Positions 3,782 to 37,598 of a DNA stretch of 37,876 nt are shown here, one piece after another; position 1 is the first letter of the stretch, and each line of letters opens with the position of its first letter. Position numbers and translations under genes: made by a program. The notes beneath the pieces were generated by a model, which made no database searches, had not been told where the DNA came from, and saw only the letters and a list, made by a program, of their open reading frames with translations. Source of the DNA: Clostridia bacterium (GTDB lineage: Bacteria; Bacillota; Clostridia; Oscillospirales; CAG-272); NCBI GenBank assembly GCA_017398585.1, contig JAFQFS010000016.1, positions 1 through 37,876 on the forward strand, read 5' to 3'.

Positions 3782-3837
3782 AAAGTTTTTTGAAAAGGGG
3801 TTTGGGGAAAAACTTTTTCGAAAAAAAGTTTTTCCCC
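3782..3837 (-). repeat. Hairpin-tail repeat, copy 2 (stop side of rhamnosidase)
   Basis: Read on the minus strand, the hairpin (3804-3837; GGGGAAAAACTTTTT pairing with AAAAAGTTTTTCCCC, loop TTCG-like) starts 6 nt after the rhamnosidase stop. The tail AACCCCTTTTC then AAAAAACTTTAT points away from that gene. With copy 3 it frames the rhamnosidase gene as an inverted pair. Confidence 0.85.
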
Positions 3838-3843
3838 AATGCC

Positions 3844-6396
3844 TTATGCTTCAAAAACATGATACCCCGAACCGACGGTCGTGACTTTGCCGCCGAAATC
3901 CACGTCGGCGGTCACGCCGAACGGGATGTCGACAAACAGATGCGTCCTGCCGTAGCGCTTTGACCAGCGGACGGAGATGTCGCCCTTGACCGTATCGACC
4001 ACGGCGTGAGCGGATTCGAGCTGCGTCGGGAAGTACGGCTTGATGCGGACCTTGTCGTACCCTGCCGCCGTCGGTACGATGCCGGCGATGTATGCGTAGA
4101 AGAAATAGCCCGCTGCACCGTACATCGGATGGTTGTGGGAGTTCATACCGGGATCCTTCTTCAGTTCGAAGCGTTCCCAGACCGTCGTCGCCTCGTTCTG
4201 GATCATATAGCCGATGGATGGATAGGTCTCGTTTGTCATCAGCTTCCACGCATCGTCGATATAGCCGTATTTCGCGAGCATATCGAACAGGTAACGCGTG
4301 CAGAGATTGCCCGTCGTGAAGCGGAAATTGCGTTCGCGGAGGTCGCGGCACATGACTGCAGCGGCTTTCTGTTCGTATTCACCGGGAACAAGACCGAGCC
4401 AGAGGGCAAACGCCTGTGCGCCCTGCGAACCGGTGCCGACGGTCGCCGTTTCGGGATGCCACCACTTCGCGAGGAACGCCTTGCCTACCTTGATCGCAAG
4501 GTCGATGTACTTGAACGCATCGTCGGTACGGTGGAGGGCGCGCGCCATTTTCGCGAGGGTTTTGCAGTTGAAGTAGGAGTATCCGGTGGACATGAGGATG
4601 CCTTCGGTTTCCTTGTTGTATGCGTTTTCTTCCGCGACACAGGCATACGAAGGTGCCGCCCAGTCGCCGTAGTAGCTGTAATTCACGATATAATTGTCGC
4701 TGCGGGAGAGGAGATAATCTTCCCATGCGGCAAAGCGGTCATACGCTTCGCGGAGAAGTTCAAGATTTCCCGTGTGCATGTACGCCTGCATTCCCGCGGT
4801 GAGGAAGGACGAGCAGACCGGGTCTGCCGGAAGTCCGCCGAATACGAACGGACAGCAGCAGGTGAATTCGCCGTTTTCGCGCTGTTCTGCCATAATATCG
4901 CGGACAATCTTTGGGAACATGCGGCCGATGTCGAAGTTGTACGGCGTTTCCTCGAACCGGACAGTCGCATCGTTCATCCAGCCCATACGCTCGTCGCGCT
5001 GCGGGCAGTCGGTGAGGATGGAGTGCATATTGTCCATCTCGGTCATGACGATGTTTTCCTGGATTTTGTTCGCAAGTGCGCTTCCGCATCGGAAGAAGCT
5101 GCCGTTTTTGATATCTGTGCAGAACATGACGGCGGTGACGTCGCGCTTGTCGAGGAACTTGACGCCGGTCACTTCGGCGTAGCGGAAGCCGTGGTAGGTA
5201 AACTGAGGCTGCCAGATAAAGAGATCGCGGGAATCGCCGGATGCAATGTAGGTGTCGGTACACTTCGCATCGCGGAGAGGTGCGGTGAAGAGATTGCCGT
5301 CTTCGTCAAGTTCTTCGGCGTGGCGGATCGTGATGGTCTGCCCCATCGTCATGGTTTCGGGGAGAACCATGCGGACGACACCGGAAATGTTCTGTCCGAA
5401 GTCGATCACGAAGCGGTCCGCAGACGGGCGGGTAATCTCGATTGCGGGGTATTCCTTCTGAATGCGGATGGGTTCGAGTACCATCGGACGGAGCTTGCCG
5501 CCGGGAGCATCGGTGAGCTTTGCGGGAGTAAAGCCGCGCATATCGCCGGTATTCCAGTCCGGGTCGGATCTCGCCGCGTCGTAGGTCTCGCCGTTGAAGA
5601 TGGAGGATGCGGTGATCGCGCCGAATTTGTACTGCCAGGTGCCGTCGGTGGAGACGGTTTCGGTTTTTCCGTCGGTGTAGGTAATCTTCAGCATCGCCCA
5701 GAGGACGGGCTCGCCTGCAAATTCGACTTTGCGTCCGCCGAGCGCGTTTTCGACGAGCGGCGTGGTATTATTGCGCCAGCCGTCCGCGACGGTAATGCCA
5801 ATGGTGTTGTGTGTGCCGTTGAACAGGCGGGCAGCGTCGTGATGGACGGTATAATAGGAGATCTTTGCGTAATTGGAGTGCGCGGGTTCGAGGAGGGAGT
5901 CGTCGGCATCGATGCCGTTGACAGTGACGCTGTGGTAGCCGTAACCCGCGACGTAGAGGCATGCGGACGCCACTTCACTGGCGAGGTCGAAGTCGCGGCA
6001 GAAATAGATTGCGCGTCCTTCGTTCGGCTCGGCGGAGGTGATCCAGCTGCCGGAAATTTCGGTTTCGTCAAGGACGCCGTTCACGAACGAGGTAATATAC
6101 GGCTGGGACTGTTCCCCCGCCGTTCCGAGAACGGTAACGCTGACGTCGATGCGGGTACCGTGCGGGAGCTTTGCTCCGGCGTATTTCACGGACTGTGCGG
6201 ACTTTTTCACGGTTCCGCTGTCCCAGTAGAGATTTTTGTCGTCGAAAACGATGACGCGGAAGGCGCGCTGGAGATCGTTTTCCTTATCGGAACGGACGGC
6301 CCACGAGAAGGTGGGGGTGTCGGTATCGGAAATGCACTTGCGGCTTCCTTCGCCGATCTTCGCGCCGTCGAGGTACAGGGCGGTAACTTGGATCAT
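3844..6396 (-). CDS. Alpha-L-rhamnosidase, glycoside hydrolase family 78
   Basis: The enzyme releases terminal L-rhamnose from plant polysaccharides or glycosides. It has 850 residues, a usual length, and no signal peptide, so it probably acts in the cytoplasm on imported oligosaccharides. N-terminal beta domains precede the (alpha/alpha)6 catalytic domain. The GH78 signature DCPQRDERMGWMND lies at about residues 463-476, with Glu 469 the expected general acid. ATTVWERFE holds Glu 741, which matches the position of the general base. TYHGFRYAEVTG and the C-terminal beta segment ending HVFEA are also typical. The ATG is preceded by AAAGG. The gene is alone between repeats 2 and 3; it could be read from the PHP gene upstream (128 nt gap), as no promoter is obvious in between. 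Confidence 0.92.
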   Translation of the reverse strand: MIQVTALYLDGAKIGEGSRKCISDTDTPTFSWAVRSDKENDLQRAFRVIVFDDKNLYWDSGTVKKSAQSVKYAGAKLPHGTRIDVSVTVLGTAGEQSQPYITSFVNGVLDETEISGSWITSAEPNEGRAIYFCRDFDLASEVASACLYVAGYGYHSVTVNGIDADDSLLEPAHSNYAKISYYTVHHDAARLFNGTHNTIGITVADGWRNNTTPLVENALGGRKVEFAGEPVLWAMLKITYTDGKTETVSTDGTWQYKFGAITASSIFNGETYDAARSDPDWNTGDMRGFTPAKLTDAPGGKLRPMVLEPIRIQKEYPAIEITRPSADRFVIDFGQNISGVVRMVLPETMTMGQTITIRHAEELDEDGNLFTAPLRDAKCTDTYIASGDSRDLFIWQPQFTYHGFRYAEVTGVKFLDKRDVTAVMFCTDIKNGSFFRCGSALANKIQENIVMTEMDNMHSILTDCPQRDERMGWMNDATVRFEETPYNFDIGRMFPKIVRDIMAEQRENGEFTCCCPFVFGGLPADPVCSSFLTAGMQAYMHTGNLELLREAYDRFAAWEDYLLSRSDNYIVNYSYYGDWAAPSYACVAEENAYNKETEGILMSTGYSYFNCKTLAKMARALHRTDDAFKYIDLAIKVGKAFLAKWWHPETATVGTGSQGAQAFALWLGLVPGEYEQKAAAVMCRDLRERNFRFTTGNLCTRYLFDMLAKYGYIDDAWKLMTNETYPSIGYMIQNEATTVWERFELKKDPGMNSHNHPMYGAAGYFFYAYIAGIVPTAAGYDKVRIKPYFPTQLESAHAVVDTVKGDISVRWSKRYGRTHLFVDIPFGVTADVDFGGKVTTVGSGYHVFEA

Positions 6397-6430
6397 GGTT
6401 CTTACCTTTCTTTTTTTGGGAGTGAATCGT

Positions 6431-6506
6431 GGAAAACCTTTTTGAGGAAAAGGTTCTGAGACTGCGAAGCAGACTCGTCCGTCCCCCTTTCCAAAACCTT
6501 TTCAAT
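6431..6506 (-). repeat. Hairpin-tail repeat, copy 3 (start side of rhamnosidase), with insert
   Basis: The arms AAAACCTTTTT and AAAAGGTT lie 34 nt upstream of the rhamnosidase ATG, and the tail CCCCCTTTCC then AAAACCTTTTCAATCTAT points away from it. A 26 nt module (CTGAG-ACTGCGAAGCAG-ACTCGTCCG) sits between hairpin and tail and folds as a small stem at 6458-6476. The same module, with few changes, is in copy 6b. Confidence 0.8.
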
Positions 6507-6524
6507 CTATGAAGAATTGAAATT

Positions 6525-7298
6525 TCATACAAGATGTTTGTCGTAAAAATAACGGATGCCGGCACCGGTGTCGGCGGGAGTGTGCGCGTCGGATGCGGTT
6601 CGGATGGGAACGTTATGACGCTTCATGGCGGCGTACAGCGCGGAAGCCATACCGGGTTCCGCGGACGCGCGTCGGGAAATGCCGGAGTTCTGTTCGGCGT
6701 ACATGCCGGATTTCGCAAGCGCGGCAGCAAGGGCATCGTATGTTTCGTCCAGCGAAAATGTGGATTTATGCCCGAACAGTTTGACCGAATCCGGGTGGGC
6801 AATGCCGTCAAACAGACCGCTTTCCGCAAGCGCAGCGGAATGTTCAAAGAAACGGCGGTATGCGTGATCGACATCAATTCCCTGCCAGAGTTCCGGTTTA
6901 TGATCAAAGGCAAAGTCGTCGATGAAGTGAACGCTGCCGACCGTAAAGTCGAGCGGTGTATGACGGATCCGTTGTGCGATGGCTTCGGTCTGTTCCGGAA
7001 GGAAGCATATTTCCAGACCAAACCGAAGGGTAATCCCATAATCGCGGGAACGCAGCCGGTCGATCAGACGAAAATATTCATCGAGAGTATGGATACCCGC
7101 TTTGCGGGTCAGCCATCGGTCGATGAAATCCGACGAACAGCGGAGTCCGTCGTACAGCGGAACGAATTCACGGAACAGATAGGAGTGATCGAGCAGGCAG
7201 AGTTCCGTGATGCCGGCATTTTTTGCGGCGTTCACAAATTCTTCCGCCCATTCTGCGGTATACGGTCCGCGTTCGAGGTGAACATGTGCGTCGGTCAT
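6525..7298 (-). CDS. PHP-domain phosphoesterase, histidinol-phosphatase type
   Basis: The 257-residue protein has the metal-binding motifs of the PHP superfamily in order: DAHVH (residues 3-7), LLDHS, GLEICF, GSVHFID, IAHPDS and SDAHTP near the C-terminus. This pattern and length fit HisK-type histidinol phosphatases, which dephosphorylate L-histidinol phosphate in histidine synthesis with a trinuclear metal centre. No other his genes are in the window, so the true substrate may be another phosphoester. A good promoter lies at 7335-7362 and a GGAG ribosome binding site about 10 nt before the ATG. The rhamnosidase gene follows 128 nt downstream beyond repeat copy 3. Confidence 0.8.
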   Translation of the reverse strand: MTDAHVHLERGPYTAEWAEEFVNAAKNAGITELCLLDHSYLFREFVPLYDGLRCSSDFIDRWLTRKAGIHTLDEYFRLIDRLRSRDYGITLRFGLEICFLPEQTEAIAQRIRHTPLDFTVGSVHFIDDFAFDHKPELWQGIDVDHAYRRFFEHSAALAESGLFDGIAHPDSVKLFGHKSTFSLDETYDALAAALAKSGMYAEQNSGISRRASAEPGMASALYAAMKRHNVPIRTASDAHTPADTGAGIRYFYDKHLV

Positions 7299-7334
7299 GG
7301 CTTATCTCCGGCGAAAAATAATATGGACAGGTAT

Positions 7335-7362
7335 ATTATAGCACAGTTTCGCGAAAAATCAA
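7335..7362 (-). promoter_or_regulatory. Promoter of the PHP phosphoesterase gene
   Basis: On the minus strand TTGATT (7357-7362) and TATAAT (7335-7340) are 16 bp apart, about 37 nt upstream of the start codon. Confidence 0.65.
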
Positions 7363-7366
7363 CGAA

Positions 7367-7396
7367 AAAAAGCTCATTCCGCAGAATGAGCTTTTT
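7367..7396 (-). terminator. Intrinsic terminator of the SLH protein gene
   Basis: AAAAAGCTCATTC and GAATGAGCTTTTT form a 13 bp stem with a 4 nt loop, followed on the minus strand by further T residues. It lies about 30 nt after the SLH gene stop. This gene end has a classical terminator and no hairpin-tail repeat. Confidence 0.8.
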
Positions 7397-7427
7397 CGTT
7401 TTCCTTATGGCACAGGAAGAATTGCAG

Positions 7428-10412
7428 TTACGGATTTACACCGTCGCTGTTGTCCGGATTCTCGGGTGTTTCGGGAACTTCCGGCTGTTCGGGCTGTTCC
7501 GGATTTTCGGGAGTTTCGGGGACTTCGGGAGTTTCAGGCTGTTCCGGTGTCTCCGGATTTTCGGGAGTTTCCGGTTCTTCCGGCTGCTCCGGCTGTTCCG
7601 GCTGCTCGGGCTGTTCCGGTACTTCGATCACTTCATAGGTGAAGTTCACGGCGAAGGACTTGCTGCCGATTCTGAAAGTGAGCTTATATTCGCCGTTTTC
7701 GAGGGCGATGGTTTCAGCAAGGGTCACTTCGAGGGTATTTTCCGCGCCGAACGCGATGGTGCTGCCGGTAAGGTCAATCTTATTTCCGTCCTTATCGGTC
7801 AGTTCGTTTACCGTCAGACGGCTGTCTGCAAAATTCGCAAGGTCAAAGTCGGGAGTTACGGTGATGGTCTGACCGTTCGCGGATGCGGTGAATTCCGGTG
7901 CGTCCGCTTCGAGGATGAAGGTGATCTGCCCCTTGTCGGAGAGGAACTCGACGTTCTTCATATAGAGGTCTGCGAGCTTCACTTCTTCGGTCTTGAAGGT
8001 ACCGTTGTCGTTAACGATGCGGAGAACCTTCATGCCTGCCGCATGGGTGTAGGTGGAGCCGTCGATGGAAACGGTACCGGAAGTATAGCCGGTCACGAAG
8101 CCGGTCACAACATGTTCGGACTTGTCGGTGGTGATGGTATCGTCGCTGCCGCAGCGGTAATCTTCGCCGACGATGAGGTCATCGGACTTAGAAAGTCTGG
8201 TTTCGATTTCATTGGATGCAAAGTTGTAGACAAGGTATTCGACGTAAGCCTTGCCGTCTTCGTAGACGAGACCGTTTTCCGCGAGGATTCTTACAAATTC
8301 CGCATTGCGGTCGTAGTTTCCGAGTTCACCGTCGCTGATGTACAGGTAACGGAGCGTTTCGACGGAACCGACTTCGTTGTTGAAGATTGCTGCGACGTAC
8401 GCACCGTCGCTGACGTGGATGGTGGATTCGTATTCACCGGTTCTCTGAAGGATGGTACCGCCGTCGTTCACAAGGATCACGGTGTTCTTGTCGGTGACAA
8501 AGCGGACGCTGTCAAGCCCCTTGACAGATGCGATGCTGTCGGCGTCGCCGCGGGAGATGGTGTAGTAGTTCTTGCCGCCGAGTTCGATTGCCGTGTTCTT
8601 TGCGGATTCGATGATGTACGCGATTTCGTCAAGGTCGTTCTGGTTCTGAACGAATTCGTTCTTGCCGGAGAGGAGAATGCCGTCTTCGGTTTCCGGTGCG
8701 ATGAGTTTGTATTCGTCGCCGGACTTGGTGTAGCGGTAGATCATGCCCGCTTCCGCGTCGGCGTTCTTGACGTAGATGTTCTGTTCCTTGCCGTCAACGA
8801 ACGCGGTCAGGACATAGCGGAAGCTGCCGTCTTCGTAGATGCGGTGTGCGTCGTCGAGAGCAATGAGGTATTCGCTGGAGTCGGAGAGGGTCACGCCTTC
8901 CGCGACTGCCACAACCGCGCCGTTGTGGATGACTGCGGTTACATTGGAACCGAGTTCGAGCTTTTCACGGATGGAGTCGGCGGAAATGCCTGCGGTCTTG
9001 TTGCCGAGGTTATAGGAATCGTCGCCGATGCGGACGCTGGACGAAGTGATGCGCTTTACGGTGCCGCTCACATAATCGAGCACTTCCGCGATGTGGAGTT
9101 CGGCGGTCTTTTCGTTGTGGTAGTAGAGGACGTAGTCGTCTTCTTCCGCCTCTGCTTCGTTGACGAAGTTGAGGTCGTTTTCCTTTTTGCCGTCCGCGAG
9201 GTTGATCTTGCCGTCGCTGTCGATTTCAAGGACATCCATTTCGAACATACGGATGAGGCCGCGCTTCGCGGTTTCTTCGCCGTTGTCGGAAAGGAGCGTA
9301 ATGCGGTAGAAGCCGAGGAGGTCGGAGAGCTCGTCGATGTCGTCGATCCGGTCAAGTCTGCCGTCTTCGTCGTAGGCATGCAGGATGAGTTCGTTGTTGT
9401 TGGTGGACAGTTCGTCGGAGTATTCGTCGACGAGGGTGTACTTCGTACCGCCGATTTCCACGGTGTCGCGGTCAGTGTCGATCTTCGCGGTGTCATAGGA
9501 CTTCGCGTCGGTCATCGGGACGGCGGAAAGAACGGAATGTTTGCCGTTCGACGTGCTGTAGATCACGCGGTAGGCGTGGCCGAGGTGGTCGTTGTCCGCG
9601 CCATCGAGATCCATCTGTTCGAACGGAACGGTCATATAGAAGGATTTGTCGTTTTCGTCGGTGCCGCGGAGGGTCACATAATCGTTCTTGACGGTGGTAT
9701 CGCCGTCAACGGAGTAATCGTTGGTGGAGACGAGAACGGCGTCGGTCATGCTGTAGTCGAACACTTCTTCGATGATGGACGTGGATTCGTAGTAGACATT
9801 GCCGTTCGCGGTGGTCTTGCCGATGAGGTATTCCGCGGTGAGCGCGTTGTACAGGATGACGGCGGTTTCCGCACGGGTGAGGGTTTCTTCGTAATCCACA
9901 TCTTCGAGACCGCGGTCAAGTCCGAGCTTGATTGCCGCGTTGATGTACGACCACGGGTAGTTTTCGTTCATCTTTTGGCTGTCCTGACCGAGGGCACGGA
10001 CGAGCATGGTCATGGCGTCCTGCTTGGTGATGCCGCCCTTCGGTTCAAAGGTGGTCTTCGACGTACCGAGGATGTAGCCGGCGGCGTTTGCCCAGGAAAT
10101 CGCGCCGTTGTAATAGGGTTCGTAGAGGTCGGTGAACCCGGTTGTGTTCACGCGGCCCGCGTCGTCGCGGCCGAGCATGAGACGGAACAGGAAGGCCGCC
10201 ATCTGTTCGCGGGTGACATATTCATTCGGAGAAAATTCTCCGTTCGAGGTGCCCTTGATGACGCCGATATCAGATAAAATGGAAATTTCGGTCTTTGCCT
10301 TGTGGTCGGAGTCAACGTCGTCATAGGTCTTTGCAAAGGTCATCGTACCGCTTCCGGCGACCATCAGTGCCGCCAGAGAGGTACTCAGAATCTTGTTTGT
10401 ACGATGATTCAT
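7428..10412 (-). CDS. Secreted surface protein with three S-layer homology domains
   Basis: A 994-residue protein with a signal peptide (Lys/Arg near the start, hydrophobic core, likely cleavage after TFA, residue 27). Three SLH domains follow at about residues 30-75, 88-140 and 152-198, including segments such as GTSNGEFSPNEYVTREQMA and GGITKQDAMTMLVRAL. SLH domains anchor proteins to pyruvylated wall polysaccharide. The long middle (200-830) is acidic and of unknown fold. An Ig-like beta domain at about 830-920 precedes a low-complexity tail of PEQ, PET, PEV and PEN repeats. There is no LPXTG or C-terminal membrane helix, so attachment is by the N-terminal SLH domains. GGAGG precedes the ATG, the promoter is at 10571-10599 and the terminator at 7367-7396, so it is a single-gene unit. 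It could be a main S-layer protein or a lesser wall protein. Confidence 0.88.
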   Translation of the reverse strand: MNHRTNKILSTSLAALMVAGSGTMTFAKTYDDVDSDHKAKTEISILSDIGVIKGTSNGEFSPNEYVTREQMAAFLFRLMLGRDDAGRVNTTGFTDLYEPYYNGAISWANAAGYILGTSKTTFEPKGGITKQDAMTMLVRALGQDSQKMNENYPWSYINAAIKLGLDRGLEDVDYEETLTRAETAVILYNALTAEYLIGKTTANGNVYYESTSIIEEVFDYSMTDAVLVSTNDYSVDGDTTVKNDYVTLRGTDENDKSFYMTVPFEQMDLDGADNDHLGHAYRVIYSTSNGKHSVLSAVPMTDAKSYDTAKIDTDRDTVEIGGTKYTLVDEYSDELSTNNNELILHAYDEDGRLDRIDDIDELSDLLGFYRITLLSDNGEETAKRGLIRMFEMDVLEIDSDGKINLADGKKENDLNFVNEAEAEEDDYVLYYHNEKTAELHIAEVLDYVSGTVKRITSSSVRIGDDSYNLGNKTAGISADSIREKLELGSNVTAVIHNGAVVAVAEGVTLSDSSEYLIALDDAHRIYEDGSFRYVLTAFVDGKEQNIYVKNADAEAGMIYRYTKSGDEYKLIAPETEDGILLSGKNEFVQNQNDLDEIAYIIESAKNTAIELGGKNYYTISRGDADSIASVKGLDSVRFVTDKNTVILVNDGGTILQRTGEYESTIHVSDGAYVAAIFNNEVGSVETLRYLYISDGELGNYDRNAEFVRILAENGLVYEDGKAYVEYLVYNFASNEIETRLSKSDDLIVGEDYRCGSDDTITTDKSEHVVTGFVTGYTSGTVSIDGSTYTHAAGMKVLRIVNDNGTFKTEEVKLADLYMKNVEFLSDKGQITFILEADAPEFTASANGQTITVTPDFDLANFADSRLTVNELTDKDGNKIDLTGSTIAFGAENTLEVTLAETIALENGEYKLTFRIGSKSFAVNFTYEVIEVPEQPEQPEQPEQPEEPETPENPETPEQPETPEVPETPENPEQPEQPEVPETPENPDNSDGVNP
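7440..7626 (-). repeat. Pro/Glu-rich low-complexity repeat inside the SLH gene
   Basis: About 60 codons encode tandem three-residue units PEQ, PET, PEV, PEN and PEE at the extreme C-terminus of the SLH protein. The DNA is a degenerate short tandem repeat (TTCCGG and GTTTCG units) and so may vary in length between strains. It would form an extended, negatively charged stalk or tail. Confidence 0.85.
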
Positions 10413-10441
10413 GGTATCCTCCGTGAGATTTGTTTTGCTCT

Positions 10442-10500
10442 CGGGGAGAACCTTTTTAAGGAAAAGGTTCTCCCCGACCCCCTTTCCAAAACCTTTTCAG
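10442..10500 (-). repeat. Hairpin-tail repeat, copy 4 (start side of SLH gene)
   Basis: The 14 bp perfect stem GGGGAGAACCTTTT with AAAAGGTTCTCCCC (10443-10475) ends 30 nt upstream of the SLH ATG, just before its ribosome binding site. The tail CCCCCTTTCC then AAAACCTTTTCAGAC points away. The promoter at 10571-10599 lies outside, so the element is transcribed in the 5' leader. Confidence 0.85.
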
Positions 10501-10570
10501 ACAAGAAGGATTATAAGGAAAGGGTTCTGTATCTTCTTTGGCGGAGCGTTCTTTCGTCCGCCGCGAGGAT

Positions 10571-10599
10571 ATGATACCACACGGAGAATTGAATTGCAA
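10571..10599 (-). promoter_or_regulatory. Promoter of the SLH protein gene
   Basis: On the minus strand TTGCAA (10594-10599) and TATCAT (10571-10576) are 17 bp apart. The leader of about 150 nt contains a small hairpin (GGCGGA with TCCGCC, near 10541-10563) and repeat copy 4. Nothing else is seen in the 10501-10665 spacer. Confidence 0.6.
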
Positions 10600-10665
10600 T
10601 GGGTTTTATGCAGATGCAACAATACTGTAATATAAATTCATTTCATTTTCATATATTTTGATAAT

Positions 10666-12021: not shown

Positions 12022-12053
12022 GAGGAAATTCCTCCTTTGGATTTGATGAATTC

Positions 12054-14310: not shown

Positions 14311-14317
14311 AGTTTTT

Positions 14318-14375
14318 CGGGAAAACCTTTTTCTCGAAAAAGGTTTTCCCGAACCCTTTCCGAAAAGCTTTAATC
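14318..14375 (+). repeat. Hairpin-tail repeat, copy 5 (stop side of M28 gene)
   Basis: GGGAAAACCTTTTT and AAAAAGGTTTTCCC form a 14 bp stem with a CTCG loop, starting 7 nt after the stop codon. The tail GAACCCTTTCC then GAAAAGCTTTAATCTAT points away from the gene. Confidence 0.85.
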
Positions 14376-14388
14376 TATAAAAGAAAAT

Positions 14389-14425
14389 GGAGATACTTCA
14401 GATTTGAAGTATCTCCTGTTTTTTT
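14389..14425. terminator. Bidirectional intrinsic terminator between convergent genes
   Basis: GGAGATACTTCA and TGAAGTATCTCC (14389-14400 and 14405-14416) form a 12 bp stem with a GATT loop. A T run follows on the + strand and an A-rich run precedes it, so it can end both the M28 gene (+) and the metallophosphoesterase gene (-), whose stop codon overlaps the T run. Confidence 0.8.
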
Positions 14426-15570: not shown

Positions 15571-15628
15571 GGGGAGTTTTTTAACGTGAGTTCGACGGAG
15601 TTCTCGTCCCCTTTCAAAAAACTTCAAA
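15571..15628 (-). repeat. Hairpin-tail repeat, copy 6a (degenerate, start side)
   Basis: The tail is well kept (CGTCCCCTTTC then AAAAAACTTCAAACT on the + strand). The hairpin part is reduced to GGGGAGTTTTTT and has been replaced by CGTGAGTTCGACGG (15585-15598), which is an exact inverted copy of 15770-15783. It lies 19 nt upstream of the lipoprotein ATG. Confidence 0.6.
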
Positions 15629-15700
15629 CTGGACAAAATGACAAAGTTTGTGTGGAGTTGTTGTTGGATTTGCACTGCATCTTGTTCCTTTATTTACCTG

Positions 15701-15772
15701 AAAGTTTTGAAAAGGGGTTCGGACGAGTCTGCTGCGCAGCCTCAGAAACTTTTTTCAAAAAGTTTTTCCCCG
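15701..15772 (-). repeat. Hairpin-tail repeat, copy 6b (stop side of second XRE gene), with insert
   Basis: On the minus strand the hairpin GGGGAAAAACTTTTT with AAAAAAGTTT starts 16 nt after the XRE stop. A 26 nt module (CTGAG-GCTGCGCAGCAG-ACTCGTCCG) comes next, nearly the same as in copy 3, followed by the tail AACCCCTTTTC and AAAACTTTCAG. The 15629-15700 spacer between copies 6a and 6b holds nothing I can name. Confidence 0.8.
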
Positions 15773-15787
15773 TCGAACTCACGGTTT

Positions 15788-18847: not shown

Positions 18848-18895
18848 AACGTGGGGAAAACCTTTTTCTGGAAAAGGTTTTCCCCGGGAAACGTT
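18848..18895 (-). repeat. Hairpin-only repeat, copy 7 (after divIC)
   Basis: GGGGAAAACCTTTT and AAAAGGTTTTCCCC (18853-18885) form a 14 bp stem, widened by AACGT at 18848 and ACGTT at 18891. The CCCCTTTC/AAAACTTT tail is absent, so this is a partial family member. It lies 13-23 nt after the divIC stop. Confidence 0.7.
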
Positions 18896-19820: not shown

Positions 19821-20090
19821 TCAGCGGAACAGTTTTGAGAAAATCCCCTTTTTCCCGTCCGTATCCGGTCTGCTGTAGTAGTAAAAGCTGTCGAATTCGC
19901 CGTTGATCTTCAGGGTACCGTGCTCGGTGTTGAAGCTCTCGATTTTCAGATTCTTCCCTTCCACCGCGATCATCCCGAGCTCCGACGTGACGGTGATCTG
20001 CCCGTCGGTGAAGCTGTCCACCTCCGAAATTCCCGTGAGCTCCATTCGTCTGCGCGAAAAAAGGCATACATCCTGTCCGTTCTGCTCCAT
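19821..20090 (-). CDS. yabP: Sporulation protein YabP
   Basis: The start is at ATG 20090 with AGGAGG 8 nt upstream; the longer open frame runs into repeat copy 8. The 89-residue protein shows the YabP/YqfC pattern LTGISEVDSFTDGQITV, then GMIAVEGKNLKIESFNTE and GEFDSFYYYS. YabP and YabQ are mother-cell sporulation proteins. A candidate sigma-E promoter is at 20225-20253 and repeat copy 8 lies in the leader, 30 nt before the ATG. Confidence 0.9.
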   Translation of the reverse strand: MEQNGQDVCLFSRRRMELTGISEVDSFTDGQITVTSELGMIAVEGKNLKIESFNTEHGTLKINGEFDSFYYYSRPDTDGKKGIFSKLFR

Positions 20091-20120
20091 AATCCACTCC
20101 TCCTTTTGAGTGAAATTAAT

Positions 20121-20176
20121 CGGGGAGAAACTTTTTGAAAAAAGTTTCTCCCCGAACCCCTCTTCAAAAACTTTGA
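20121..20176 (-). repeat. Hairpin-tail repeat, copy 8 (start side of yabP)
   Basis: GGGGAGAAACTTTTT and AAAAAGTTTCTCCCC pair around a short loop at 20122-20153, 30 nt upstream of the yabP ATG. The tail GAACCCCTCTTC then AAAAACTTTGAT points away. Confidence 0.85.
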
Positions 20177-20224
20177 TACAATTGAATTGAATAAAGGAAT
20201 TCAAAAACTTTTTGTTTATGTTTG

Positions 20225-20270: not shown

Positions 20271-20345
20271 AAAAGGTTTTTGGAAGGGACGAGACTTCCG
20301 TCGGAAGTCTCAGGGGGAACCTTTTTCCTCAAAAAAGGTTCCCCC
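20271..20345 (-). repeat. Hairpin-tail repeat, copy 9 (stop side of rqcP), with insert
   Basis: GGGGGAACCTTTTTT with AAAAAAGGTTCCCCC-type arms (20313-20345) starts 12 nt after the rqcP stop. An insert with the perfect stem GAGACTTCC/GGAAGTCTC (20291-20311) comes between the hairpin and the tail CCCTTCC, AAAAACCTTTTTA. Confidence 0.85.
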
Positions 20346-20357
20346 ACGAAACTTCTC

Positions 20358-20600
20358 TTATTGAATCACTTCGTACATGGACGCGGCGTCGGCCTTTGCG
20401 GCGTGTTCGCGGACGTCGACCACGCGGATCTTCAGGGTACGTTCGCCGTAGGTAACGGCGATGATGTCGCCTTCCTTGACGTCGTACGATGCCTTCGCGC
20501 GCTTGCCGTTGACTTCGACGTGCTCGGTGTCGCAGGCTTCGTTTGCCACGGTGCGGCGCTTGATGATACGGGATACTTTCAGAAATTTGTCAAGTCTCAT
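20358..20600 (-). CDS. rqcP: S4-domain RNA-binding protein RqcP (YabO)
   Basis: An 80-residue protein consisting of one S4 domain: MRLDKFLKVSRIIKRRTVAN, VEVNGKRAKASYDVKEGDII and VREH. RqcP works with RqcH in ribosome quality control, binding the 50S subunit with peptidyl-tRNA during alanine tailing of stalled chains. The position after mazG and before yabP is that of yabO in Bacillus. GGAGG overlaps the end of mazG, with 3 nt between the genes. Confidence 0.9.
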   Translation of the reverse strand: MRLDKFLKVSRIIKRRTVANEACDTEHVEVNGKRAKASYDVKEGDIIAVTYGERTLKIRVVDVREHAAKADAASMYEVIQ

Positions 20601-23877: not shown

Positions 23878-23897
23878 GAGTTTCCCTTTTCCAGATT

Positions 23898-23952
23898 GAA
23901 AGTTTTTGAAGTGGGGTCCGGTGAGAAACTTTTTTCAAAAAGTTTCTCACCG
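23898..23952 (-). repeat. Hairpin-tail repeat, copy 10 (stop side of hemZ)
   Basis: GGTGAGAAACTTTTT and AAAAAGTTTCTCACC form the stem at 23920-23951, 14 nt after the hemZ stop. The clamp is GGTG/CACC in place of GGGG/CCCC, and both arms changed together. The tail ACCCCACTTC then AAAAACTTTCAATC points to the uridine-kinase-like gene. Confidence 0.85.
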
Positions 23953-23965
23953 TTGTCCTCATCTC

Positions 23966-25939: not shown

Positions 25940-25997
25940 CCGGGGAAAACTTTTTTGAAAAAAAGTTTTCCCCGGACCCCTTTCAAAAAACTTTAAA
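25940..25997 (-). repeat. Hairpin-tail repeat, copy 11 (start side of dtd)
   Basis: CCGGGGAAAACTTTTTT and AAAAAAGTTTTCCCCGG form an almost perfect stem (25940-25975) that ends 15 nt before the dtd ATG. The tail ACCCCTTTC then AAAAAACTTTAAACTAT points away. A TATAAT (26000-26005, minus strand) lies just upstream, without a good -35 box. Confidence 0.88.
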
Positions 25998-26028
25998 CTA
26001 TTATAGATAACAAAATTTGTGCAGATTT

Positions 26029-26895: not shown

Positions 26896-26898
26896 GAG

Positions 26899-30017: not shown

Positions 30018-30054
30018 AAGATATTCTTTGTCTTTCTTCCGGCTTCCGGTCGGG

Positions 30055-32250: not shown

Positions 32251-32291
32251 TAGTATTCTCTTTCTTTATATATAAATTTTTATTATCATCG

Positions 32292-32837: not shown

Positions 32838-32860
32838 ATTGCGTAGGTCTCCTTTGAAAT

Positions 32861-33322
32861 TTATTCGTCCGCTTCCGGCTGCCCCGCACGTCGTACGATC
32901 TCGACAACGGCAATGTCCGGAAGAGATTTTTTCCGGGAACGGTCAAAGAGATAAATGCCGGCAAACGCCAGGACAAATCCCGCTGCAGCGGCGATGAGAG
33001 CAGGCACTTCCGCGGTAAAAACGGCGTCCGCAATAAAATAAAAGACCGCACAGACGAAAATCGGCATCATAAACACAAGTGCGGCGTATCCGAGAACCTT
33101 CGTGCTGTCAGTTTCCACCTCCACGGTGTCCCCCGGTTCCGCTCCGATTTTATTCTGCGCAGTAGTTTTCATTGTCTTTCCGCTGCCCGCAATCAGTCCG
33201 GACAGCTCACAGTGATGCTCACATCCGCCATTCTTCTGGCATCCGTCACACATCGACGCCCGGCTGACCTCAATCTCAGCAATCTTTCCTTCCGTTTTAA
33301 CCACAACAGCCCTCTGTCGCAT
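32861..33322 (-). CDS. RseC/MucC-family membrane protein
   Basis: The start is at ATG 33322, next to AAAGGAG; the longer open frame passes into repeat copy 12. The 153-residue protein has the RseC pattern: a soluble N-domain with a cysteine group (CDGCQKNGGCEHHC, about residues 25-38), GDTVEVE, then two membrane helices (about 78-98 and 103-125). RseC family members are linked to electron transfer by the Rnf/SoxR-reducing complex; in Clostridia the role is unproven. A promoter is likely at 33459-33488. Confidence 0.85.
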   Translation of the reverse strand: MRQRAVVVKTEGKIAEIEVSRASMCDGCQKNGGCEHHCELSGLIAGSGKTMKTTAQNKIGAEPGDTVEVETDSTKVLGYAALVFMMPIFVCAVFYFIADAVFTAEVPALIAAAAGFVLAFAGIYLFDRSRKKSLPDIAVVEIVRRAGQPEADE

Positions 33323-33351
33323 AGGGTTCTCCTTTGGAAAATGATGTTTCT

Positions 33352-33424
33352 CGGGGAAAACTTTTTCGAGAAATGGAGGAAGTCCGTTCCTCCGTTTCCC
33401 CGAACCCCTTTCAAAAAGCTTTAA
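33352..33424 (-). repeat. Hairpin-tail repeat, copy 12 (start side of rseC-like gene), with insert
   Basis: GGGGAAA and TTTCCCC arms enclose an insert with the stem GGAGGAA/TTCCTCC (33375-33393). The hairpin edge is 30 nt upstream of the ATG. The tail GAACCCCTTTC then AAAAAGCTTTAATCTAT points away. The insert replaces the usual loop side of one arm. Confidence 0.82.
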
Positions 33425-33458
33425 TCTATGAAAAGGGATTTGGGATAACAAAATTTAC

Positions 33459-33488
33459 AGTACAAACAATCTGCACACACTCTGTCAA
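33459..33488 (-). promoter_or_regulatory. Probable promoter of the rseC - GNAT - recJ - relA operon
   Basis: TTGACA (33483-33488) and TGTACT (33459-33464) on the minus strand are 18 bp apart. It lies between repeat copies 13 and 12, so copy 12 is in the leader. Confidence 0.5.
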
Positions 33489-33500
33489 CACAATAGTCTG

Positions 33501-33575
33501 AAAGTTTTTGGGAAGGGTGAAGACTTACTGCGTAAGTCTTCTGGGAAACCCTTTTTTCAAAAAGGGTTTCCCCGC
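33501..33575 (-). repeat. Hairpin-tail repeat, copy 13 (stop side of flavoprotein gene), with insert
   Basis: GGGAAACCCTTTTT and AAAAAGGGTTTCCC form the stem (33543-33572), 12 nt after the stop. An insert with the stem GAAGACTTAC/GTAAGTCTTC (33519-33541) comes between the hairpin and the tail CCCTTCCC, AAAAACTTTCAGAC. Confidence 0.85.
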
Positions 33576-33585
33576 GAACTCCCTT

Positions 33586-35175
33586 TCAAATCCTATACTC
33601 AGCAATAATCTTCGCGGCGATGCGGATGCCGTCGACGGCGGCGGAGACGATGCCGCCTGCGTAGCCTGCGCCTTCGCCGCAGGGGTAGACGCCGGGATGA
33701 CCGGGTGCGGTGAGATTTTCGCCGCGCAGGATGCGGACGGGGGCGGAGGTTCGCGTTTCCACGCCGGTGAGCGGGACGTCGGGGCTGTCGTAGCCTTTGA
33801 TTTTTCTGCCGAAGTCGGTGAGTCCTTTTTTGAGGAGGTCGGTGACGAACGGCGGGAAGATGTCGTGGAAGTCACAGGGGGTAACCTGTGCATCGCGGAA
33901 AGTCGGGACGATCCGGGAATAGTTCGTGCCTTTTCTGCCGTTCAGCAGGTCGCTGACGGTCTGCATGGGCGCGGTATAGTTGGAACCGGCGGTACGGTAG
34001 GCGCACCGTTCGAGGTTCCTCTGGAATTCGATGGCGCCGGACGGAGTATCCCCGTAGTCCTCCGGCTTGACGGAAACGCACACGGCGGCGTTGGCGTTGC
34101 GTCCGTCGCGGGCACGGGTGCTCATGCCGTTGGTGACAACGCCGAATTCCTCGCTCGCCGACGGAACAACAGTTCCGCCGGGACACATGCAGAACGTATA
34201 ACAGCCGCGATCGCCTTCGCGGTACGAAAGCTGGTATTCCGCGTGACCGAGAGTTTTATCCCCCGCGTGGCTGCCGAACAGGGCGCGGTCGATGTCCTCC
34301 TGCAGATGTTCGGCGCGGACGCCGACGGAGAACGGCTTCGGTTCGATGAGATACCCTTTCGAGAGGAGTTCGTGATAAGTATCGCGGGCACTGTGCCCGG
34401 TCGCAAGAATCAGGACGCTGTACGGGACGGTGTTCCCTCCCGCGCAGACGGTGGAGCCGGTAATATCGGTGACTTTGGTTTTATAGTGGATCTCGCCGCC
34501 GAGAGCGGTGATGACACGGTCTGCCTCCTTCACGACGCCGCGGAGGATATCCGTTCCGATGTGGGGCTTGGCTTTGTATTCGATGTCGGCGGGAGCGCCG
34601 AGTTCGTGGAGTTTTCGGAGGACGTAAGCGATCAGCGGATCACCGATTCGCGTGGTGAGCTTGCCGTCCGAGAAGGTTCCGGCACCGCCCGCACCGAACT
34701 GGATGTTGGTGTCGGTGTCAAGGATGCCTTCTTTGGTGAAGCGTTCGACCGCCGCGACGCGTTCGTCAACGTCCGCACCGCGTTCGAAAATGATGGGACG
34801 GAAACCGTTCTCCGCGAGGACAAGTCCGGCGAACATGCCGGCGGGACCGAATCCGACGATCACCGGACGGTGTTCCATGGGACGGGAACCGCGGGTGAGA
34901 TTCAGCTCGGGTTCGGTGAACCGCTTGATGTCGGGATCGTTTTCGAGGACGGAAGACCTACAGTCAACTTCCGCATAGACGGTGTAGACGAACGACAGCT
35001 CCGCACGGCGGCGGGCGTCGATGGATTTTTTGGAAATCTGGAGGTTCTGCGGGGTCGATCCGGTTTTACGGTTCAGCAGGGATGCCGCTTTATGGATCGC
35101 CGCCGCGTCGGGATCGCTGTCCGGACGGTAGGTCACGCGGATGTTCCCGACGGTGATTTTCTGGTATTCTTTCAT
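33586..35175 (-). CDS. FAD-dependent oxidoreductase, COG2509 type
   Basis: The 529-residue protein has a dinucleotide-binding motif VIVGFGPAGMFAGLVLAENG (about residues 105-124) after an N-terminal domain of about 95 residues, then GAGGAGTFSDGKL, ILATGHSARDTY and the C-terminal FAD segment YPCGEGAGYAGGIVSAAVDG. This layout is that of the COG2509 family of uncharacterised flavoproteins common in Clostridia. The electron acceptor and substrate are unknown. It is the last gene of the cdaA-cdaR operon (18 nt after cdaR). Confidence 0.88.
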   Translation of the reverse strand: MKEYQKITVGNIRVTYRPDSDPDAAAIHKAASLLNRKTGSTPQNLQISKKSIDARRRAELSFVYTVYAEVDCRSSVLENDPDIKRFTEPELNLTRGSRPMEHRPVIVGFGPAGMFAGLVLAENGFRPIIFERGADVDERVAAVERFTKEGILDTDTNIQFGAGGAGTFSDGKLTTRIGDPLIAYVLRKLHELGAPADIEYKAKPHIGTDILRGVVKEADRVITALGGEIHYKTKVTDITGSTVCAGGNTVPYSVLILATGHSARDTYHELLSKGYLIEPKPFSVGVRAEHLQEDIDRALFGSHAGDKTLGHAEYQLSYREGDRGCYTFCMCPGGTVVPSASEEFGVVTNGMSTRARDGRNANAAVCVSVKPEDYGDTPSGAIEFQRNLERCAYRTAGSNYTAPMQTVSDLLNGRKGTNYSRIVPTFRDAQVTPCDFHDIFPPFVTDLLKKGLTDFGRKIKGYDSPDVPLTGVETRTSAPVRILRGENLTAPGHPGVYPCGEGAGYAGGIVSAAVDGIRIAAKIIAEYRI

Positions 35176-35193
35176 TCTGTATGCTCAGTCTGC

Positions 35194-36504
35194 TCAGTTT
35201 TCAAAGGTTACGTCGATTTCGTAGATGCCGAGTTCAAAGACGCCTTCGTTGTACTCGGAGTCGATGATAACATCGGCACGGACTTTGATGGTGCCGGTAT
35301 TGGTTTCGGAGTACGGGCTCATGTCAAGGCGGAGGATGATGTCCTCGGGTTCGATCGCGGCAATGTTGTCGATGAGACCGCAGATCGTGACGATGACGGG
35401 AGAGTGATCCCACGAATAGGACACGCCTTCCTTCCCGCCGGTATCCTCGATGTTCTTGCCGGGGACGGTGAGCTGACGGGTCTTGATGGAATCGTCGATG
35501 ACAACCGAGATATCGATGGCGTCGATGACACAGGAGATACCGCTTGCAAAGTCAAGCGGAACGGTTCGTTCGTAGGTATCGCCGTAGAAATCGTTCTTTT
35601 CGTCAATGATGATGGGTTCGAGGAGGTTGCCCGCGTCGATGGCAGCCGGGTCGCCGGTGACTTCCAGCACGGACGGGCTGACAATCATGGTGGTGTTTTC
35701 GTTGTTCAGGAAGCCGTAGCGGAAGCGGACATCCACGGGAACGACCGCACGCTTGTATACCGGAACCACGACAGCGACTTCACGGGGATAATATTCGATG
35801 TAGGGGCTTTCGAATTCGTTGCCGTTTTTATCAAGGAGGATGACCTCTTCAGTGAGAGAAACGGTGCCGGTGACGCCGGTGAGGTCAAGGTTCACGACGG
35901 CTTTGTCGATGCCCGCAAGAACTTTGGAAGGACCTTTGACAGTAACTTTGTCGACGGGGAATTCGACCACGCCGGTGTAGCAGTCCTCGGGAAGGTTGGT
36001 ATTTTCGCGGATCTCGGTGAGGTCAACGGCGGCCTGGCTGGCTTCGTCGAAGTAGACGGAGATGGTTCCCTGTGACATACCGACGAGCTTGCAGCCGGCA
36101 GGCACGTCAATGGTAACGGGGCAGTCGTAGCGGCTGCCGCCTTCCTTGACGGCGCTGACATCCGCAGTCGCGACGATATCCTTTTCCTCAAGTTTGGAAA
36201 TAACGCTTTTTTTGCCGGAGAGAGTGACGTCAATCATAGTACCATAGCCGCTGTAAATGGCGAGACCCTTTTTGGAAACGAGTTCTTCGGTATTGGTGAG
36301 GTTGACGACAATACGGGAGAAGGTCTGCTCATACTCGGGGCTTTCGACCTGCATGACGTAAATCCACAGGCAGAACGCCGCGATGACGCAGAAAACCTTC
36401 GCAATCAGCTCGGTATGGGGCTCATGCTTTACAAGCTCTTCCCCGGCTTCCGCGGCGGCCTTTCTCTTTTTGAAATTTATATTCGAAAAATTTTTATCAG
36501 ACAT
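35194..36504 (-). CDS. cdaR: CdaA regulatory protein CdaR (YbbR domains)
   Basis: The 436-residue protein has one membrane helix (about 33-52, LIAKVFCVIAAFCLWIYVMQ) and then about four YbbR repeats outside the membrane. CdaR binds CdaA and modulates c-di-AMP synthesis. It sits directly after cdaA (39 nt), the usual order. The C-terminal repeats are more diverged. Confidence 0.9.
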   Translation of the reverse strand: MSDKNFSNINFKKRKAAAEAGEELVKHEPHTELIAKVFCVIAAFCLWIYVMQVESPEYEQTFSRIVVNLTNTEELVSKKGLAIYSGYGTMIDVTLSGKKSVISKLEEKDIVATADVSAVKEGGSRYDCPVTIDVPAGCKLVGMSQGTISVYFDEASQAAVDLTEIRENTNLPEDCYTGVVEFPVDKVTVKGPSKVLAGIDKAVVNLDLTGVTGTVSLTEEVILLDKNGNEFESPYIEYYPREVAVVVPVYKRAVVPVDVRFRYGFLNNENTTMIVSPSVLEVTGDPAAIDAGNLLEPIIIDEKNDFYGDTYERTVPLDFASGISCVIDAIDISVVIDDSIKTRQLTVPGKNIEDTGGKEGVSYSWDHSPVIVTICGLIDNIAAIEPEDIILRLDMSPYSETNTGTIKVRADVIIDSEYNEGVFELGIYEIDVTFEN

Positions 36505-36543
36505 ATGGAGTTCCTTCCGGATGAATGGCAGTCCCCTTGCAGG

Positions 36544-37431
36544 TTACTTTTCGATTGGTTCTTTCATACCCTTCGTGTGGGTACGGAACGTAAACTTGCG
36601 GGTCGTACGGTCGGCATCGCTCATGAGTTCGGAGCGGAGGAATTCGGTGAGAGTTTCGCGGGTGTAGCCGCGTTCGAGATTGCCTTCCACAGCAGTGGAG
36701 ATGGTACCGGTTTCCTCGGAGACGATGACAACGACGGCGTCGCTGTTTTCACTGACGCCGATGCCGGCGCGGTGACGGGTACCAAGGTCCTTGATGATAT
36801 CGGGATTGTTGGAAACGGGAAGGACGCATCCGCCGGCATGGAGACGTCCGCCGCGGATGATGAGCGCACCGTCATGGAGCGGCGCCTTATTGAAAAAAAT
36901 GTTCTTGAGAAGAAACGCGGTGGGGGCAGCGTCGAGGACGGTACCGGAAGGCACGATATCGCCGAGCTTGGTGGTGCGTTCGAACACGATCAGCGCGCCG
37001 GTCTTGTCCTCCGAAAAATCCACGACGGCGGACACGACCTCGTCGATTGCGGTCTGAACGGATGACGTGACCTTTGATTCCCCGCTGATTCCCTTCAGTC
37101 CCTTGAGCGGCTGTGCACCTACTTTTTCCAGCAGAGAGCGGATCTCCTGCTGGAACAGGATAACGAGCGTAATGATACCGACCTGGAAGATGTTCTGCAT
37201 GATATACTGCATGACATACATATCCGCAAGCTGGCTGACAAACTGGATGATAAACAGGAGCACGATACCGATCGCAAGCTTCCCGGCTCTCCGTTCGCGG
37301 ATAAACCTGAAAAGATAGTACAGCAGCACCGACACACAGGCAATATCAATAATATCCGCCAGTGATATCGTTTTTATGATGCCAATGACATCCGCGATCT
37401 GCTCCGACAGTGTTAAAAGCAATACATTCAC
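36544..37431 (-). CDS. cdaA: Diadenylate cyclase CdaA
   Basis: The 295-residue protein has three N-terminal membrane helices (within residues 20-100) and a DAC domain with KAPLHDGALII (DGA motif) and LGTRHRAGIG (RHR motif), which bind ATP and make c-di-AMP. c-di-AMP controls potassium and osmolyte transport and is often essential. The start is GTG (37429-37431) with AAAGGG about 11 nt upstream; no suitable ATG lies nearby. A strong promoter precedes it. Confidence 0.95.
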   Translation of the reverse strand: MNVLLLTLSEQIADVIGIIKTISLADIIDIACVSVLLYYLFRFIRERRAGKLAIGIVLLFIIQFVSQLADMYVMQYIMQNIFQVGIITLVILFQQEIRSLLEKVGAQPLKGLKGISGESKVTSSVQTAIDEVVSAVVDFSEDKTGALIVFERTTKLGDIVPSGTVLDAAPTAFLLKNIFFNKAPLHDGALIIRGGRLHAGGCVLPVSNNPDIIKDLGTRHRAGIGVSENSDAVVVIVSEETGTISTAVEGNLERGYTRETLTEFLRSELMSDADRTTRKFTFRTHTKGMKEPIEK

Positions 37432-37465
37432 GACAGATTAATCCCTTTCCGTTCTTTATTATCAT

Positions 37466-37494
37466 ATTATATCATATGCACCGTGGTTTTTCAA
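37466..37494 (-). promoter_or_regulatory. Promoter of the cdaA operon
   Basis: TTGAAA (37489-37494) and TATAAT (37466-37471) on the minus strand are 17 bp apart, about 35 nt upstream of the GTG start. Here the nearest repeat (copy 14) lies upstream of the promoter. Confidence 0.65.
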
Positions 37495-37551
37495 ACCTTT
37501 TTCGATTATTTTGCAAAAAATAAAATGGGAAATGTGCATATTGCTCGCAAA

Positions 37552-37598
37552 GGGGGGAACGGTCGCTTTTTGAAAAAAGCTCCGCAAAAACTTTAATC
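37552..37598 (-). repeat. Hairpin-tail repeat, copy 14 (degenerate, upstream of cdaA)
   Basis: GCTTTTT and AAAAAGC remain of the stem, with GGGGGAACGG on one side and a tail reduced to GCAAAAACTTTAATCTG. The tail points away from cdaA. It is 120 nt from the start codon, the farthest of the family. Confidence 0.6.

Follow-up and report, generated by a model that had tools for sequence, protein, structure and literature searches.

Dispersed hairpin-tail repeats at gene borders of a Clostridia bacterium carry a putative triple-helix unit and may provide split ribosome-binding sites

Introduction

What kind of element is the short hairpin repeat that recurs between the genes of a Clostridia contig, and what might it do there? 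The window (the whole stretch of DNA analysed, 37,876 nucleotides, contig JAFQFS010000016.1 of a Clostridia bacterium in the order Oscillospirales) had been read from its sequence alone as holding about 15 related hairpin-tail elements, all in spacers. These copies are confirmed: 15 are found in the window, two of them degenerate (6b and 14), and 308 in the sampled part of the same genome, with the hairpin centre of a single copy inside a called gene. We propose that the copies are single or paired ends of a high-copy palindromic intergenic repeat that is probably mobile, that the tail of each unit may bind in the groove of its own hairpin and so complete, as third strand, an intrastrand DNA triple helix, and that units directly before start codons could serve as split ribosome-binding sites. 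Judging from sequence comparison, we put the probability of this explanation as a whole at roughly 0.47.

The window's own genome bin (G000; 3.18 Mb, 74% complete) was compared mainly with a relative in the same genus (G004). Judged by RelA, the nearest records come from uncultured Clostridia/Oscillospiraceae of gut and rumen. A covariance model built from six window copies gives at least 150 matches in G000, and an nhmmer profile built from 65 copies gives the 308 copies, which lie in 61 stretches of G000, the window included, covering 1.17 of the 3.18 Mb and 86% coding. These stretches were picked from contigs with a prior model match, so that the density of 0.26 copies per kb may be too high. 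Gene calls come from an in-house caller, whose starts are less certain than its stops. Several contig ends of G000 coincide with repeat copies (e.g., C9:1-64, C104:14-76 and C170:1-53, C170 being the window contig); assembly breaks at repeat copies, and the bin may therefore undercount them.

Structure of the repeat

The unit consists of a hairpin of about 34 nt and a tail of about 18 nt. Read hairpin-first, it runs from a weakly conserved outer end of about 12-17 nt, near AAATGAAGTTTC, through the hairpin (e.g., GGGGAAAACTTTTTTGAAAAAAGTTTTCCCC) and a linker of 1-3 nt to the tail (e.g., CCCCTTTCAAAAAACTTT). Neighbouring copies without an intervening gene face each other with their tails in 70 cases and are otherwise arranged in 3 in G000 (16 versus 0 in G004). 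Such tail-inward pairs have a modal span of about 225 nt and stand as terminal inverted repeats, as in a miniature inverted-repeat transposable element (MITE); several of them fold into one long palindrome, and a core motif like GTGCAGATTTG lies beyond the tail in 31 of 66 copies. Evidently, a larger palindromic element fills the spacer and has the hairpins at its outer ends. The two ends of a pair are seldom alike: 42 of the 44 parsed pairs (86 pairs in all) carry unlike hairpins. The sequence-only reading had described several transcription units as framed by inverted copies. This framing stands for the rhamnosidase gene, the dtd and radical-SAM pair and the group of cdaA, the YbbR-protein and the FAD-protein genes, although the copy at the cdaA end (37566-37602) is weak. 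It arises because hairpins are the outer ends of one palindromic element and both neighbouring spacers are occupied.

Larger and more unusual forms are also seen. The G004 loci L106, L107, L111, L117-L119 and L125 (e.g., L119:16704-17376) hold elements of about 570-690 nt with the same hairpin-tail ends, internally palindromic and without called genes; they are similar to each other and look young. In another genome, G219, the locus-specific flanks of 30-38 nt on either side are inverted repeats of each other at L152, L155 and L156, more weakly so at L153 and L154; they are clear in three of six loci, and nearly the whole spacer is palindromic. At L063:1082-1390 in G000 and L116:2396-2704 in G004, a small gene lies between tail-inward copies whose tails face it, and this arrangement is conserved.

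Covariation of hairpin and tail

Tails tend to match the 5′ side of their own hairpin as its parallel complement, both within G000 and G004 and beyond the genus. Among 289 copies of G000 and G004, 260 of which could be parsed for run lengths, the C-run in the arm equals that in the tail, 1:1 in 156 of 163 copies and 2:2 in 82 of 91 (238 of 254 combined). The pyrimidine length of the tail equals the purine length of the arm minus one in 190 of 260 copies, and the T-run of the arm is as long as the A-run of the tail in 155 of 260. The loop is likewise associated with the bases after the tail A-run: AAGG or GAGG goes with CC in 58 of 59 copies, and CGAG or CGGG with GC in 21 of 22. At the base level, the hairpin sequence GAGAGGAACC is found with the tail CTCTCCTCC, GGGAGAAAAC with CCCTCTTTC, and GGAGAAAAAC with CCTCTTTTC. 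The window copy after the radical-SAM gene (copy 10) has an orthologous copy in G004 (L002), in which hairpin and tail have changed together.

Edit distances to this rule were taken from 247 parsed copies (60 were unparsable). When each of the 42 hairpin types is counted once, the mean distance is 1.19 versus 2.72 after permutation (2000 permutations, minimum 2.31), and 12 types fit exactly versus 0.68 expected (permutation maximum 5). Beyond the genus, 23 combinations from four genomes of other genera or families score 10.87 versus 7.47 permuted (sd 0.35), with 1.13 for an antiparallel control; here TTTCTG is paired with AAAGAC, and CTTCTT with CAAGAA. Two other sources of covariation were rejected. 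Antiparallel pairing of the tail with its own hairpin, as in an attenuator, is discounted because the tail features run parallel to the hairpin and the antiparallel control scores lower. Pairing between two tails is discounted because, where the two ends of a pair are unlike (42 pairs), a tail agrees with its own hairpin (0.94) and not with the tail of its partner (2.07).

A mirror relation has no Watson-Crick meaning, and a known physical principle that would select for one is the triple helix; the idea of an alternate-strand triplex is also an existing one. We infer that the covariation of hairpin and tail is the signature of an intrastrand triple helix. On the tail-first strand, the base of the stem would hold G.G-C and A.A-T triplets and its top T.A-T triplets, none of which needs a protonated C. 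The two triplex motifs would then be divided between lower and upper stem, the tail passing from one strand to the other at the purine-pyrimidine junction. In the available text of PMC4666352, G-G-C and T-A-T are named as stability-driving triplets.

Copies at gene starts

Where the hairpin lies within 22 nt of a start codon, the native ribosome-binding site is often missing. Among 42 such copies in G000 and G004, 34 have no Shine-Dalgarno sequence in the gap between hairpin and start (30 in G000 and 4 in G004); 88% of element-free G000 genes (n = 474) have one. The genes concerned presumably include tsaD, fabD, a polA-like gene, a leuC-like gene and tmk, names which, like iorA below, we assigned from the first residues of the gene products; they also include dtd, whose assignment rests on Pfam. 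In these copies a purine tail stands just upstream of the hairpin, such as GAAAGGAG or, often, GAAAGGGG. With an anti-Shine-Dalgarno sequence that we take to be that of the host, the predicted pairing reaches at least -10 kcal/mol in 26 of the 34 tails and is stronger than in 192 stop-side copies (p = 1.5e-4). In the 37 copies located 23-50 nt from a start, 92% have a Shine-Dalgarno sequence in the gap and the tail pairing is not stronger (p = 0.82).

Ten start-side ends carry no called element in G004, and at five of them the G000 copy leaves a gap without a Shine-Dalgarno sequence. At dtd, L054 gene 10 and L072 gene 0, the element-free G004 ortholog has a nearby Shine-Dalgarno sequence (-5.1, -9.0 and -5.4 kcal/mol, respectively). 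Upstream of the iorA-like gene (L074:194-1918), the sequence GGTTTTGAAAGGAGC is identical in G000, G004 and a third species, G295; behind it each species has a hairpin of its own, quite unlike the other two, and the ATG comes 13-14 nt later. Among 20 loci of this gene that were read (25 genomes matched), 3 have the tail-hairpin form, 16 have a readable start without that form and 1 is at a contig edge; 14 of the 16 other genus members have a direct Shine-Dalgarno sequence (-6 kcal/mol or better in the last 22 nt). The order of tail, hairpin and start is also found at the leuC-like gene and fabD in G000, G004 and G295, the fabD start of G295 being TTG. In the other genomes shown, a direct Shine-Dalgarno sequence (-5 kcal/mol or better) is present in 5 of 5 at the leuC-like gene and 3 of 5 at fabD (8 of 20 and 8 of 17 loci shown, respectively). 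A fixed tail with a changing hairpin, as at the iorA-like site, is what would be expected if the ribosome, and not the triplex, constrains the tail.

Start-side copies within 22 nt can thus be read as putative split ribosome-binding sites, in that a Shine-Dalgarno sequence lies upstream of a conserved hairpin with none between that hairpin and the ATG, in 34 of 42 copies and in three species at the iorA-like gene. The ribosome would use the upstream tail, and the folded hairpin would shorten the distance to the ATG. Such a site is described in the available text of PMC3014915 for genes 25 and 38 of phage T4, in which a hairpin conserved among relatives separates an upstream Shine-Dalgarno sequence from the ATG and folding reduces the distance from 27 to 11 and from 22 to 5 nt. 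The present sites differ in being predicted from sequence and in belonging to a repeat dispersed in the chromosome; 34 of them were counted in the sampled DNA of two species.

Strength and meaning of the proposed explanation

Several observations weigh against the explanation proposed here. The tail rule is exact in 115 of the 247 parsed copies, with 92 more one edit off. Of all tails, the own one ranks in the best-fitting 10% for 44% of the combinations in G000, 40% in G004 and 74% in the other genomes. At the purine-pyrimidine junction the rule breaks down (a C stands where it predicts G, one base being skipped), as it does at some G positions, so tails lag behind hairpins. It is not kept at the iorA-like site, where the tail stays while the hairpin changes, and a second hairpin parts hairpin from tail in 4 of the 15 window copies. 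The element types may descend from a few masters, and the 42 types are not 42 independent events. According to the available text of PMC4666352, purine-motif triplexes do not form in RNA. As to the start-side copies, strong tails are also found in the 18 copies more than 50 nt from a start (median -10.7 kcal/mol, versus -11.3 within 22 nt and -8.6 on the stop side); tail strength is therefore not unique to abutting copies, and our confidence is lowered accordingly. Furthermore, 8 of the 34 tails are weaker than -10 kcal/mol, 8 of the 42 close copies do have a Shine-Dalgarno sequence in the gap, and the folded spacing of about 10-21 nt is at the long end relative to T4 gene 25 (11 nt). Of the five sites compared with G004, L073 gene 6 has a different hairpin and a different called start there, and the fifth (L074 gene 0) is the iorA-like gene itself. 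The 16S 3′ end that would give the anti-Shine-Dalgarno sequence was not found in 19 genomes, the sole 16S being partial, without its 3′ end and from outside the genus.

A more far-reaching statement would be that an alternate-strand intrastrand triplex unit, kept by covariation in several families of one order and placed at several hundred gene borders of one lineage, has rewired translation initiation in many genes (including tsaD, fabD, polA and dtd) by means of portable split ribosome-binding sites; we regard it as possible but doubtful. If the proposed explanation is true, natural sequence variation would back a triple-helix third strand. Selfish-looking repeats would have replaced the ribosome landing sites of ordinary genes in this genome, and split initiation sites would be a recurring chromosomal arrangement and not a phage oddity. 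The takeover of start sides would be an unusual route for repeat DNA to gain control of genes. Earlier support for a third strand, in the available text of PMC4666352, comes from searches for motifs, from measurements in vitro and from the footprinting of a single motif in vivo.

Distribution and mobility

Copy number varies strongly within the genus, with at least 150 matches in G000 and in G004 and 0-66 in 17 other genomes searched. Across the order, 21 of 245 genomes match, G000 included, and these belong to several families; G113 and G219 hold very similar copies. Among 41 orthologous gene ends, an element is called in G004 at 18 and none at 23, and the spacers of window copies 8, 9 and 11 are without the element at L001 and L002. 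These results suggest that the high-copy, palindromic, intergenic element is probably mobile.

They are also what plain selfish repeats, similar to repetitive extragenic palindromic (REP) sequences or MITEs, would leave behind. On this account, hairpin and tail would be an end recognised by a transposase on folded single-stranded DNA, the likeness to Shine-Dalgarno sequences would be chance, and the genes behind would be translated by coupling or without such a sequence. The wide spread in copy number, the similar copies of G113 and G219, the 670-nt G004 version with the same ends and the 23 of 41 ends without a called element all agree with it, as do the even orientation of copies in short tandem spacers of G000 (below) and the strong tails far from starts. 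No mobilising enzyme was identified, however, in searches that by family covered Y1. No Y1 transposase (PF01797) is found in the 74% complete G000, a search that did not extend to other transposase families, so that the linked RAYT-type enzyme sought after the sequence-only reading did not appear there. The 11 Y1 loci in other genomes show no element beyond one match at E 0.025, and we rejected a Y1 transposase as the mobiliser, none being found in G000 and none being linked to the element in the relatives' loci. No autonomous copy with a gene between tail-inward ends was recognised in spans below 3 kb, and the listed inner genes, judged by eye from their first 90 residues, do not look like transposases. 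In the pairs inspected by eye (45 of 70 in G000 and 16 of 16 in G004), no target-site duplication was seen. One 24-base pattern has no exact match in viral contigs, and for a G219 locus no comparable empty spacer appeared in four loci read, synteny being tested no further. Selfish repeats also leave unexplained why the iorA-like gene keeps its tail while the hairpin changes, and why tails are stronger than on the stop side where the native Shine-Dalgarno sequence is missing but not where it is kept. We consider the purely selfish account less likely and prefer the explanation in which a mobile-looking repeat also carries a triplex unit and provides split ribosome-binding sites.

Placement relative to genes

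Placement was analysed for 218 usable copies; the other 90 have no clean hairpin or tail, have no neighbouring gene on one side or overlap a gene. Of the 142 stop-side copies, 135 have their hairpin edge no more than 25 nt from the stop; of the 76 start-side copies, 65 have it no more than 50 nt from the start. With both kinds of gene end taken together, 173 of 218 edges lie within 25 nt, versus 61.2 under uniform placement (maximum 77 in 1000 runs). The same is true in spacers of at least 150 nt (117 of 155 copies, versus 22.0 with a maximum of 36). The earlier description of a hairpin beside a gene end with its tail pointing away is thus upheld as non-random.

The sequence-only reading had further taken the opposite orientations of start-side and stop-side copies as a boundary signal, and had named random orientation or position across the genome as what would overturn this. 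Position is not random, as shown above; orientation is even among lone copies in short tandem spacers of G000, with 28 hairpins at the stop and 27 at the start. The boundary signal is therefore not borne out there, though the 17 such copies of G004 favour the stop side by 14 to 3. The two classes are mainly two orientations of one unit, and a stop-side bias is possible in some species, such as G004. Copies that look young hug genes less: the 670-nt G004 elements are 75-187 nt from starts and 9-67 nt from stops, and copies in G113 and G219 are 28-320 nt from genes. The hugging of gene ends may arise after insertion, via deletion or selection.

A transcript-boundary element, acting as a two-way terminator, an insulator or a protector of RNA ends, would account for some of this placement. 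Among spacers of at least 40 nt, 44 of 104 between two stops are occupied versus 11 of 114 between two starts (155 of 426 in tandem); the hairpin is 4-23 nt beyond most stops; a terminator-like hairpin lies beyond window copy 5; and the stop-side excess of G004 points the same way. However, by inspection no U-run follows the hairpin of stop-side copies in the sense of the ending gene, where tails of the type CCCCTTTC follow instead, so a plain intrinsic terminator is not supported. The even orientation in G000 and the many copies in operon-like short spacers also argue against such an element, and BoxC repeats, or potential intrastrand triplex (PIT) elements, are reported in the available text of PMC4666352 to be without promoter or terminator activity. 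We give this alternative a slim chance. On the proposed explanation, stop-side copies would act, if at all, probably as 3′-end hairpins.

The last alternative, that stop-side copies act in RNA with hairpin and pyrimidine tail forming a U.A-U / C.G-C triplex that blocks 3′-to-5′ decay, has at best as slim a chance, since four adjacent C.G-C triplets need protonation and the rule is no weaker on the start side, whose tail is purine in RNA (52% of 90 copies exact), than on the stop side (43% of 155), even though the stop-side sense makes the tail a pyrimidine third strand, the code fits in part and pyrimidine-type intrastrand triplexes are possible in RNA according to the available text of PMC4666352.

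Relation to known repeats

REP sequences and the bacterial interspersed mosaic elements (BIMEs) that they form are palindromic, intergenic repeats with inverted pairs and many copies, and go with RAYT (Y1) transposases; MITEs such as the pneumococcal BOX and RUP are non-coding, have inverted ends and are hundreds of nucleotides long or less. The present repeat is like REP/BIME in being palindromic, intergenic, paired in inverted orientation and abundant, but has a long mirror-complement tail and no Y1 transposase in G000 or linked to it in the relatives' loci. With BOX and RUP it shares the features just named, but it would differ from them in that no target duplication was seen by eye, no parent transposon was found and the hairpins at its two ends are mostly unlike.

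The nearest kind is the PIT/BoxC repeat. In E. coli these repeats are dispersed, intergenic, sometimes in inverted unlike pairs and variable in number, with no established function in gene control in the available text of PMC4666352. Our repeat shares with them the dispersed intergenic hairpin with a third-strand block, the inverted unlike pairs and a copy number that varies strongly among close relatives; their mode of dispersal is found here (1 of 308 copies inside a gene, 70 tail-inward pairs, 42 of 44 parsed pairs unlike), as are, at the level of types, purine, pyrimidine and third-strand blocks in keeping with the triplex code, apart from a regular deviation at the junction. The differences are as follows. 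BoxC/PIT repeats in E. coli K-12 MG1655 have no preferred distance to genes, whereas the present ones hug gene ends, in hundreds. The block order here is, on our reading, class I on one strand and class III on the other, and the tail appears to switch stem strands. Some of the present copies offer a Shine-Dalgarno sequence, and the sequence differs. The class II pattern of the triplex motif TMECO, CCCTCNCCC-N3-6-GGGNGAGGG-N3-GGGNGAGGG, is absent, order and sequence both differing by inspection. The repeat is therefore kin in kind to BoxC but not a TMECO member. The earlier statement that no named family fits needs qualification, in that PIT/BoxC repeats fit in part. Rfam gives no match at gathering score, and the weak matches look like chance. 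A limited literature search found no report of a repeat family that supplies split ribosome-binding sites or follows the present tail rule.

Copies in the window

The copies in the window and one neighbouring hairpin are as follows.

1-53, minus strand: copy 1, hairpin cut by the window edge, with tail (54.1 bits with model R1)
3774-3838, plus strand: copy 2, tail followed by a hairpin whose edge is 5 nt from the rhamnosidase gene stop
6422-6515, minus strand: copy 3, located upstream of the rhamnosidase gene, a variant whose main hairpin is parted from the tail by a second one (nhmmer 35.3 bits at 6419-6516)
10441-10505, minus strand: copy 4, 28 nt from the SLH-domain protein gene start, which keeps its native Shine-Dalgarno sequence
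14317-14379, minus strand: copy 5, 6 nt after the M28 peptidase gene stop
14389-14416, plus strand: separate hairpin and T-run like an intrinsic terminator, just beyond copy 5
15593-15650, minus strand: copy 6b, tail and degenerate hairpin (16.9 bits at 15593-15633)
15693-15780, plus strand: copy 6a, two-hairpin variant
18853-18885, strand not assigned: copy 7, hairpin without tail
20120-20183, minus strand: copy 8, flanked by the start of the gene at 19821-20090 and, by eye, a promoter-like stretch
20274-20347, plus strand: copy 9, two-hairpin variant after the stop of the gene at 20358-20600, tail-inward pair with copy 8
23890-23953, plus strand: copy 10, 12 nt after the radical-SAM gene stop
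25940-26002, minus strand: copy 11, in place of the native short spacer, 15 nt upstream of the start of dtd, gap without Shine-Dalgarno sequence, tail GAAAGGGG
33351-33430, minus strand: copy 12, extra hairpin in the 3′ arm, 28 nt before the start of the RseC-family gene
33492-33580, plus strand: copy 13, two-hairpin variant that follows the FAD-dependent protein gene stop and forms a tail-inward pair with copy 12
37566-37602, minus strand: copy 14, weak and degenerate, at the cdaA end (21.1 bits, E 0.048)

The two-hairpin variant is found at 6422-6515, 15693-15780, 20274-20347 and 33492-33580, where an extra hairpin such as GAGTCTGCTTCGCAGTCTC lies between the main hairpin and the tail; by eye, these tails still fit their own hairpins. 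Apart from the repeat, a nine-base tandem repeat at 7444-7644 within the SLH-domain protein gene gives a short repetitive stretch near the C-terminal end.

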